The position numbers and the translations under genes were made by a program. A stretch of DNA of 64,000 nt from Candidatus Saccharimonadota bacterium (lineage in GTDB: Bacteria; Patescibacteriota; Saccharimonadia; Saccharimonadales; Saccharimonadaceae), in NCBI GenBank assembly GCA_028288995.1, contig JAQGHF010000003.1, positions 248,001 through 312,000 on the forward strand, in the 5' to 3' direction. The notes under the pieces were generated by a model. That model had not been told where the DNA came from. It saw only the letters and a list, made by a program, of their open reading frames with translations, and made no database searches. Shown piece by piece: positions 44,872 to 47,302 of the stretch. Position 1 is the first letter of the stretch, and every line of letters starts with the position of its first letter.

Positions 44872-47115
44872 ATGGGTCAACAAAGACTCGGTACGCCACA
44901 AGCTGACGATACCTCTAAACAAAACCCGCGAAATAACAATGGCGGGAACAACAACGGAAACAATCCGCGTCCAAAGCAGAATAATACTATTCTTGCAGGA
45001 ACACAGACTCGCCGCGGCGAAGTCTTTCGTGCGCAACGACGCACCAGCGAAGGTGTTAACCTCCGTGCGTCACAACACATTATTAATGTGCCAGTGAACA
45101 AATCAATCTTTAACGGTTACGACGGCAAACAATACAGCCTCGCCGACCAAAAGAAGCAACCGCGAACAAACGGTCCGAAGCTTCGTATTATTCCACTTGG
45201 TGGACTCGGCGAAATGGGTATCGGCAAGAACATGATGGCGATCGAATACGATAACGACATTATCGTCATCGATATGGGCTTCCTTTTCCCAGGTGCAGAC
45301 TACCCAGGTATTAACTACATTATTCCTGACACAACCTACCTTGAAGAGAACAAGCACAAGATCCGTGGTATTGTCTTTACTCACGGACACCTCGACCACA
45401 TCGGTGCCTTCCGTCACATTGTTGACAAGATTCCTGCACCAATTTACGGAAGTAAGTTTACCCTCGCTATGGTTCAAAAAACCATGGAAGAAGCGACAAG
45501 CGGTTACGAGCCTGTTTACAATGTCATGGATCCAGAAGCACACGAACGCGTACAGCTTGGTGATAGCTTTAGCATCGAATTAGTTCGAGTAAACCACTCG
45601 ATCCCTGACGCAACTGCTGTCGTTGTTCGCACACCACTTGGTGTTGTTGTCGACACAGGCGACTGGCGTTTCGAAGATGCTCCCGTTGACGGACGAAAGT
45701 TCGACCTCGAGCGATTGACTGAAATCGCCACTAAAGAAGGCATTTTGATGCTCATGAACGAGTCAACCAACTGTGAATCAGAAGGTGGACACGAACATGG
45801 TGAGTTCGACATTCAGGAAAGTATGGGACAGGTTATGGATAAATATCCTGAAAGCCGCCTCATCCTTAGTTGTTTCTCTAGCCAGATTCACCGTATGCAG
45901 GTCATCCTCGACGAAGCAAAGAAGCACAACCGTAAGGTTGCCTTTGCCGGTTACAGCATGATTCAGAACGTTGAAGTTGCGCTACGAACCGGAACTATTA
46001 AAGTTCCTAAAGACGTTATCGTAAAGATGGAAGACATCGTGAAGTTCCCTGATGGAAAAGTAACGATCGTTTGTACTGGTTCACAAGGTGAGTTCAGCGC
46101 CGTTCTTAACCGTATGGCATCTGGTTCACACAAATTTATCAAGATCAAAAGCAGCGACATTATTGTCTTTAGCTCAAACCCAATCCCTGGTAACGAAAAG
46201 TACGTTACTCGTACTGTCGACGGATTGATGCGAGAGGGAAGCGGCGTTATTCAAAACGGCAAAACTCACCTTACTGGCATCGGTCCACTCCACCTTTCAG
46301 GTCACGGCTACTACGACGACCACGTCAAGCTTATCAATGCTTTGAACCCGAAGTACTACCTGCCGATTCACGGTGAGTTCCACATGTTGGTTCACAACGC
46401 TGAGCTTGCGCAAAAAGAAGCCGGTATCCCACGTGAAAACATCTTTGTTTGTGACAGCGGTGACGTGATCGAAATCAACACTGAAGGCGCGAAAAAAGCC
46501 GGACGTGTCCCCGTTGGTGGTGTCATGTACGACGACTCTGGCGCAATCGTGTCAGAAGTAGTCCTTAAAGACCGTATTCACATGGCCAGCGAAGGTATGT
46601 TTGTCGTGATCCTTACCGTTTCAAAGGGAAGCGGACGCCTGCTTACGAGTCCTGACATCATCTCTCGTGGATTTATCTACCTACGTGATAGTGAAGAGCT
46701 GATGGGCGTCATTCGCCAATACTTGAAGCAAAAAGTTGCCCGCACCTTCAACGGTCGCCGAGTTGATCTCGACACTGTGAAGAAGGAAATTAAGGACGAG
46801 CTGACGCACGTGCTGTATGATCAGACTCGCCGAACACCAATCGTGATCCCTGTGATCAACGAAATTGGTGGCGGTGGTAACGGTGGCAAGCAACCTGAGG
46901 GTGACCGCGGACACCAACCACGTCAGCAACAGGGTCGGGGCGGTGGTCCTCGTAATGACCATAATGACCGACGTCCACAAGACGCGCCTCAAGATGCAGC
47001 TACTGCACCCGCAGTTGAAGCACTTGGTCTAGAGACAAAAACTTTCCCAGCACCGATGGTGCCTGATACGGAAGCAGTTGAGCCAAAGAAAGTCCCTGAC
47101 GTTCGCGGCTACTAG
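44872..47115 (+). CDS. rnj: Ribonuclease J with low-complexity extensions at both ends
   Basis: Metallo-beta-lactamase/beta-CASP RNase with 5'-3' exonuclease and endonuclease activity in rRNA and mRNA processing. Core motifs: IRIIPLGGLGEMGIGKNMM region (LRIIPLGGLGEMGIGKNM), the zinc motif FTHGHLDHIGAF, HSIPDATAV, DTGDWRFE, beta-CASP GSQGEFSAVLNRMA, and HLSGHGYYDD. The core begins near residue 100: the first 85 residues are N/Q/G/R-rich, and the last 75 are again G/Q/R- then Pro-rich. Length is 747 against 550-560 for typical RNase J. Such tails often bind RNA or partner proteins; here that is inference. AAAGGAG is the ribosome site. Confidence 0.95.
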   Translation: MGQQRLGTPQADDTSKQNPRNNNGGNNNGNNPRPKQNNTILAGTQTRRGEVFRAQRRTSEGVNLRASQHIINVPVNKSIFNGYDGKQYSLADQKKQPRTNGPKLRIIPLGGLGEMGIGKNMMAIEYDNDIIVIDMGFLFPGADYPGINYIIPDTTYLEENKHKIRGIVFTHGHLDHIGAFRHIVDKIPAPIYGSKFTLAMVQKTMEEATSGYEPVYNVMDPEAHERVQLGDSFSIELVRVNHSIPDATAVVVRTPLGVVVDTGDWRFEDAPVDGRKFDLERLTEIATKEGILMLMNESTNCESEGGHEHGEFDIQESMGQVMDKYPESRLILSCFSSQIHRMQVILDEAKKHNRKVAFAGYSMIQNVEVALRTGTIKVPKDVIVKMEDIVKFPDGKVTIVCTGSQGEFSAVLNRMASGSHKFIKIKSSDIIVFSSNPIPGNEKYVTRTVDGLMREGSGVIQNGKTHLTGIGPLHLSGHGYYDDHVKLINALNPKYYLPIHGEFHMLVHNAELAQKEAGIPRENIFVCDSGDVIEINTEGAKKAGRVPVGGVMYDDSGAIVSEVVLKDRIHMASEGMFVVILTVSKGSGRLLTSPDIISRGFIYLRDSEELMGVIRQYLKQKVARTFNGRRVDLDTVKKEIKDELTHVLYDQTRRTPIVIPVINEIGGGGNGGKQPEGDRGHQPRQQQGRGGGPRNDHNDRRPQDAPQDAATAPAVEALGLETKTFPAPMVPDTEAVEPKKVPDVRGY

Positions 47116-47130
47116 TTCATAAGTTCAGTT

Positions 47131-47250
47131 CGGTAAATTCGACTCTCATTCTCTTTCGGAGGCCGCTCTATGGGGAACAAGTTCGCCCATGGCGCTTGGC
47201 TCGCCCCGTGAGGGGACATCCTCCTCTAGAAAACGAGAGTCGAATTACCG
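47131..47250 (+). ncRNA. Strongly folded RNA element downstream of RNase J
   Basis: Bases 47131-47147 pair with 47235-47250 in a 16-bp closing stem with one bulged A. Inside, GGAGG (47158-47162) pairs with CCTCC (47220-47224), GGGG (47172-47175) with CCCC (47204-47207), CAAG with CTTG (47078-type arm at 47178-47181 and 47195-47198), and CGCC (47184-47187) with GGCG (47191-47194). All helices nest. I match it to no known RNA (not tRNA, tmRNA, SRP or RNase P as far as I can see). No separate promoter is clear, so it may be a 3' untranslated element or a processed small RNA. Confidence 0.6.
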
Positions 47251-47272: not shown

Positions 47273-47302
47273 AAAGGGCCCCGCAACTCGCGGAGCCCTT
47301 TT
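47273..47302. terminator. Terminator after RNase J/RNA element and the convergent small gene
   Basis: AAAGGGC (47273-47279) and CCGC (47281-47284) pair with GCGG (47290-47293) and GCCCTTT (47295-47301), one mismatch, loop AACTC. A and T runs flank it on both sides. Confidence 0.85.

Follow-up and report, generated by a model that had tools for sequence, protein, structure and literature searches.

The hairpin after rnj of a Candidatus Saccharimonadota bacterium belongs to a new family of scattered hairpin repeats

The hairpin that follows the RNase J gene (rnj) of this Candidatus Saccharimonadota bacterium belongs to a new family of scattered hairpin repeats. Judged from its sequence, it is probably (probability about 0.77) one of the copies of a dispersed palindromic repeat of mobile type, which resembles either the miniature elements known as MITEs or the Rickettsia palindromic elements (RPE). 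This reading is preferred because the element is multicopy, is patchily distributed between related genomes, has sites that are occupied in one genome and empty in another, occurs in both orientations and has in-frame copies. It is also preferred because the copies share a covarying head that is near-identical across loci and sits on complementary stems that are private to each locus. The best reading is that the kind of element is known, a dispersed palindrome like RPE or MITEs, and that the shared head on a private stem is what is unusual here. The element is without coding capacity.

Position and fold of the hairpin after rnj

The window is the whole stretch of 64,000 nucleotides that was analysed. 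No inverted repeat found in the window is longer than the hairpin at positions 47131-47250. The original prediction described a strongly structured element with a 16-bp closing stem that carries one bulge, and the coordinates, the stem, the bulge and the distance of 15 nt from the rnj stop codon (47113-47115) all agreed. The minimum free energy (MFE) of 47131-47250 is -59.3 kcal/mol (z -6.6) and none of 200 shuffles was equally stable. The features of the element are shown in Table 1. The 5' arm (47131-47147) has no match at the other loci of this genome and is kept in the orthologous rnj copy of genome G014 with one double compensatory change.

Among the inner helices first proposed, GGAGG/CCTCC is kept in the fold of the family; GGGG/CCCC, CAAG/CTTG and CGCC/GGCG belong to the MFE structure of the single copy. 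The consensus inner fold places hairpin A (TATGGG..CCCATG) and hairpin B within the GGAGG/CCTCC helix. It has an energy of -56.0 kcal/mol in the window copy, 3.3 above the MFE, and is favoured because the covariation of the family backs hairpins A and B.

The element did not resemble an intrinsic terminator, as no T tract follows it directly and GCGCGAACC comes after the stem. A clean terminator had been expected downstream. A separate hairpin does lie there, but it scores on the minus strand and its plus-strand tail is short.

Table 1 Features of the element after rnj and of its surroundings in the window
Feature	Coordinates	Strand	Evidence or remark
rnj, RNase J, upstream host gene	44872..47115	+	Pfam RNase_J_b_CASP and RNase_J_C
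5' outer arm, locus-specific, CGGTAAATTCGACTCTC	47131..47147	+	pairs with 47235-47250, one bulged A
Conserved core	47148..47235	+	matched by covariance model R1/R2, 103.6 bits
Junction-closing helix, 5' strand GGAGG	47158..47162	+	helix 1 of A3; both-side changes in 4/4 pairs
Hairpin A	47162..47200	+	helix 2 of A3; invariant flanks CTCTAYG / CRYGTGGCG, invariant U-G pair
Hairpin B, CCCC-GTGA-GGGG	47204..47215	+	helix 3 of A3
Junction-closing helix, 3' strand CCTCC	47220..47224	+	A3 covariation
3' outer arm, locus-specific, GAGAGTCGAATTACCG	47235..47250	+	complement of 47131-47147
Terminator-like hairpin, separate from the element	47273..47301	.	scored on minus strand; plus-strand tail only TTTT

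Family size and distribution

When the element was searched by BLAST in its own genome (836 kb, 5 contigs), three copies were found: 3' of rnj, 3' of map and in the interval that separates ftsA from a NUDIX gene. A fourth copy near a ROK-family gene was added by a covariance model (A1/R1) built from nine copies, which gives four copies of the core of about 85 nt in this genome. The same core lies within tsaD, dus and mnmA in relatives.

The covariance model detected the family in five of the 17 genomes of the window's genus (g1) and in 25 of the 394 sampled genomes of the same taxonomic family. The carriers in that family fall into six of 61 genera and have at most eight copies per genome. One carrier is Candidatus Saccharibacteria bacterium UBA6039. 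In a phylum-wide sample, seven of 380 genomes match, where two of these matches are weak and lie outside the family. Genome G187 has four copies with identical cores that are located at contig ends (L067-L070). Assembly from short reads thus stops at the element, and the copy numbers are probably too low.

The original prediction found no known RNA that it could recognise and proposed Rfam and covariation searches. At both gathering and permissive thresholds, no Rfam family (6S included) matched the window copy. The element copies at 12 further loci also had no Rfam match. A pattern scan of IMG/VR found no element and blastn against INPHARED found no phage match. Among the papers searched, nothing relevant was found on attC, MITEs or palindromic repeats in Saccharibacteria/Patescibacteria.

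Two other repeats were observed. A second family of dispersed palindromes has a core around GAACGGCTTCGCGCC...GGGCCCCGGCGCC...TCGGGCTGCAGATGTTC and outer stems that are likewise locus-specific. Its loci are L151-L180 (mnmA, genus g60), L119 (3' of rnj in G001), L121 and L136. It occurs repeatedly in frame in one same loop of MnmA and matches in 13 of 24 tested genomes, with a maximum of nine in G012. Another repeat of about 86 bp recurs near the elements in genomes of genus g60 (L061, L062, L063, L080, and L094).

The conserved core and its covariation

The alignment of 54 copies (A3) exhibits a common three-way junction that consists of the long stem with its closing helix, hairpin A and the short hairpin B. 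The base of hairpin A is strictly conserved (CUYUAYG...CRYGUGGCGYUYGGC). Because the R1 structure was used to fit A3, the alignment leans towards that fold; 95.2% of its cells are paired compared with 36-47% in slid controls, and double changes occur in 18 of 24 pairs. The cells with double changes number 227 compared with 73.9 expected from shuffles, a count that none of 500 shuffles reached. Hairpin A has 97.0% of its cells paired, double changes in 10 of 16 pairs and the U-G pair in 53 of 53 copies. Hairpin B has 92.8% of its cells paired and double changes in all four pairs. RNAalifold on a MAFFT alignment of nine copies gave the same fold. The structure is kept in relatives with strong covariation. 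Covariation of this kind is no proof of function, because template switching yields compensatory changes without selection.

Locus-specific stems and exchanged heads

The outer stem is 16-40 bp long and self-complementary in nearly every copy (pairing is lost in a few), and its sequence differs by locus. The mean pairing energy is -25.2 kcal/mol for cognate arms versus -12.1 kcal/mol for non-cognate arms. At orthologous sites the arms are 87/90% identical for rnj, 80/87% for map and 83-100/87-93% for ftsA; those of the ROK-site orthologues are not kept. Changes in the arms between orthologues are mostly double (TA>CG, AT>CG, and GC>CG).

The paralogues exhibit the opposite pattern. The rnj and map copies of one genome have cores that are 97% identical, and the neighbouring map and ftsA copies of G014 have cores that are 91% identical on arms that are 13/40% identical. 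The arms of paralogues in genus g1 are mostly 13-63% identical, which is near random (mean 34%, maximum 70%). Two copies in different genomes, in tsaD of G077 and in dus of G181, are 98.8% identical in their cores over 81 bp (BLAST), beyond which the stems are abruptly unrelated. At ftsA, the arms of G014 and G015 are 100/93% identical whereas the cores are 81% identical. Near-identical paralogue cores on unrelated stems, together with orthologue stems that carry differing cores, indicate that loci exchange cores but retain their stems. We infer that the plainest cause of this exchange is ectopic gene conversion, possibly triggered by breakage at the hairpin, and it could be ordinary short-tract gene conversion. 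The whole element of about 133 bp, arms included, is common to many copies in genus g60, so the element can also spread as a unit. A separate observation is a stretch of about 500 bp with the element that is 92-100% identical between two species in surroundings of about 75% identity (L096 1200-1700, L100), which suggests recent transfer or conversion.

Wobble-type mismatches in the arms fit G-U pairing on the minus strand in 94 cases and on the plus strand in 37 (13:13 in the window's own genus), where related copies are not independent. This minus-strand bias was seen in g60 and other genera and is treated as a lead.

Insertion sites and host genes

One clean site that is occupied in one genome and empty in another was identified. 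G014 has 148 bp between a DUF3850 gene and the next gene that are missing in G015; the flanks are about 90% identical and the missing segment takes in both arms. No target-site duplication was found at this single site. With G001 as outgroup, G015 may have lost the segment instead of G014 having gained it, because G001 has a copy at the same site with similar left flanks (L010 vs L013).

The rnj genes of G015, G001 and other species have no element, and their stop codon is followed by a terminator-like hairpin or other sequence. In the close relatives G015 and G001 the terminator-like hairpin comes directly after the stop codon. The rnj gene of G001 (L119) also has a 40-bp perfect inverted repeat just past its stop codon, with arms unrelated to those of the window element.

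Copies in frame were found inside TsaD, Dus, MnmA, and a DnaX-like ORF. TsaD (G119 and others) and MnmA (G197, G232, and others) are intact proteins in genomes where the 35-40 inserted residues are absent. In TsaD of G077, the outer stem extends on one side into native codons that are conserved (PLTLPA), and the other arm complements these native codons far better than shuffles (2/1000). MnmA of G244 has the same but weaker complementarity (43/1000). These two hand-picked cases hint that the native flank served as the template for one arm, as happens in template-switch mutation.

Most copies with a clear neighbour sit just past a stop codon. A stop codon lies within 60 nt on the 5' side of 20 copies, on the 3' side of six, on both sides of one and on neither side of 21, and five copies lie inside ORFs, where the ORF calls are mechanical and one of the 20 is a tsaD copy that was wrongly included. 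The excess on the 5' side would suit a structured RNA element that acts in mRNA 3' ends as a stabiliser, RNase barrier or protein-binding site, with a head that binds protein as RNA and copies that are multiple by chance. The strong covariation of the core, its invariant plus-strand U-G pair and the 101 G-U versus 19 A-C cells on that strand also suit such an RNA. It is nevertheless unlikely to be the explanation, given the 21 copies without a nearby stop codon, the several copies within coding sequences, the occurrence of both orientations, the very patchy distribution and the arm wobbles that favour the minus strand outside the window's genus.

Comparison with known systems

Rickettsia palindromic elements are short (about 100-150 bp) palindromes that are dispersed in small genomes and occur in frame in protein genes (PMC10969869). 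The family is similar in that a dispersed palindrome lies in frame in unrelated protein genes, with relatives of TsaD and MnmA that are without it. As far as RPE can be compared by description, the family differs in its locus-specific outer stems around a conserved three-way-junction head, in the exchange of heads and in the many intergenic copies past stop codons. The family shares with bacterial MITEs (ERIC, BOX, RUP, Correia, and others) a short non-coding repeat with inverted-repeat structure. It differs from them in that copies in the window's genus have no terminal inverted repeats in common and no duplication of the target site was observed; the element is more MITE-like in genus g60, where arms are common to copies.

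REP sequences are likewise palindromic, mostly extragenic and present in several copies, but the element is a three-way junction of about 120 bp. Y1/RAYT transposases (PF01797) are absent from all 13 tested genomes of genus g1, and the REP/RAYT link was rejected for that genus. In genus g60, RAYT/Y1 was found in four of six tested genomes with the element and in three of seven tested genomes without a listed hit, and the RAYT loci carry no element copy.

Hairpins that arise by template switching should have perfect stems specific to each locus, and their double changes should be clustered (PMC8794818). They leave the shared dispersed head of the element unexplained.

The attC sites of integrons are folded imperfect palindromes whose structure is more conserved than their sequence, and they lie past stop codons, as the element does. 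In attC sites the base of the stem is conserved and the apex is variable. The element has a conserved apex and a variable base, and identity with attC was rejected as the conserved part is at the wrong end of the hairpin. Exchangeable genes in the map-ftsA interval (L004 6563-7674; L051 1745-2733; L103) lie between two elements in inverted orientation, where the cargo is a membrane protein and NUDIX in G000 and another membrane-like ORF in G014, and G015 is without one of the elements and the cargo. This arrangement and the many elements that begin right past stop codons would fit a recombination site of an integron-like system with elements as cassette boundaries. That explanation is highly improbable in view of the reversed conservation, the mostly solitary copies and the copies inside genes.

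The readings first suggested (a stable small RNA derived from the rnj mRNA, an RNA like 6S or an element through which rnj regulates itself) are scarcely tenable: the element lies inside the presumed rnj transcript ahead of the terminator-like hairpin, but it is not conserved with rnj, is absent 3' of most related rnj genes, has the same core at unrelated loci and matches no Rfam family, 6S included.

Possible mechanism

For a dispersed, mobile-type repeat, what is recognised during movement or head exchange might be a folded single strand, either ssDNA during replication or RNA. Template switching that copies one flank onto the other, selection for folding, or both might make the arms complementary or keep them so. 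No transposition event was observed. Movement would need an enzyme in trans, or ordinary recombination together with replication errors. The position 3' of rnj would represent an insertion that rnj tolerates. It may have a mild stabilising effect on the 3' end of the rnj mRNA, and any such effect would be secondary.

A tentative and rather doubtful extension is that the three-way-junction head itself is the mobile unit, which would enter new sites or replace the head of another hairpin, with the stem then made from the target flank by template switching. Insertion of a bare head into pre-existing hairpins was rejected in two settings. The stems of the rnj terminators in relatives are unlike the arms, and the empty site in the G014/G015 comparison is without arms.

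Meaning of the family

The genomes of this group are small and are regarded as streamlined, yet those of this family contain dispersed palindromes, some of which lie in essential tRNA-modification genes. The hairpins described here are also a warning that a hairpin may covary strongly without being a functional RNA. If the head is indeed the mobile unit, the family would represent a mobile element that brings no inverted repeats of its own and makes them from the sequence of the host. The conserved heads and locus-specific stems offer a natural system for asking whether long hairpins come from selection, transposition or template switching during replication.
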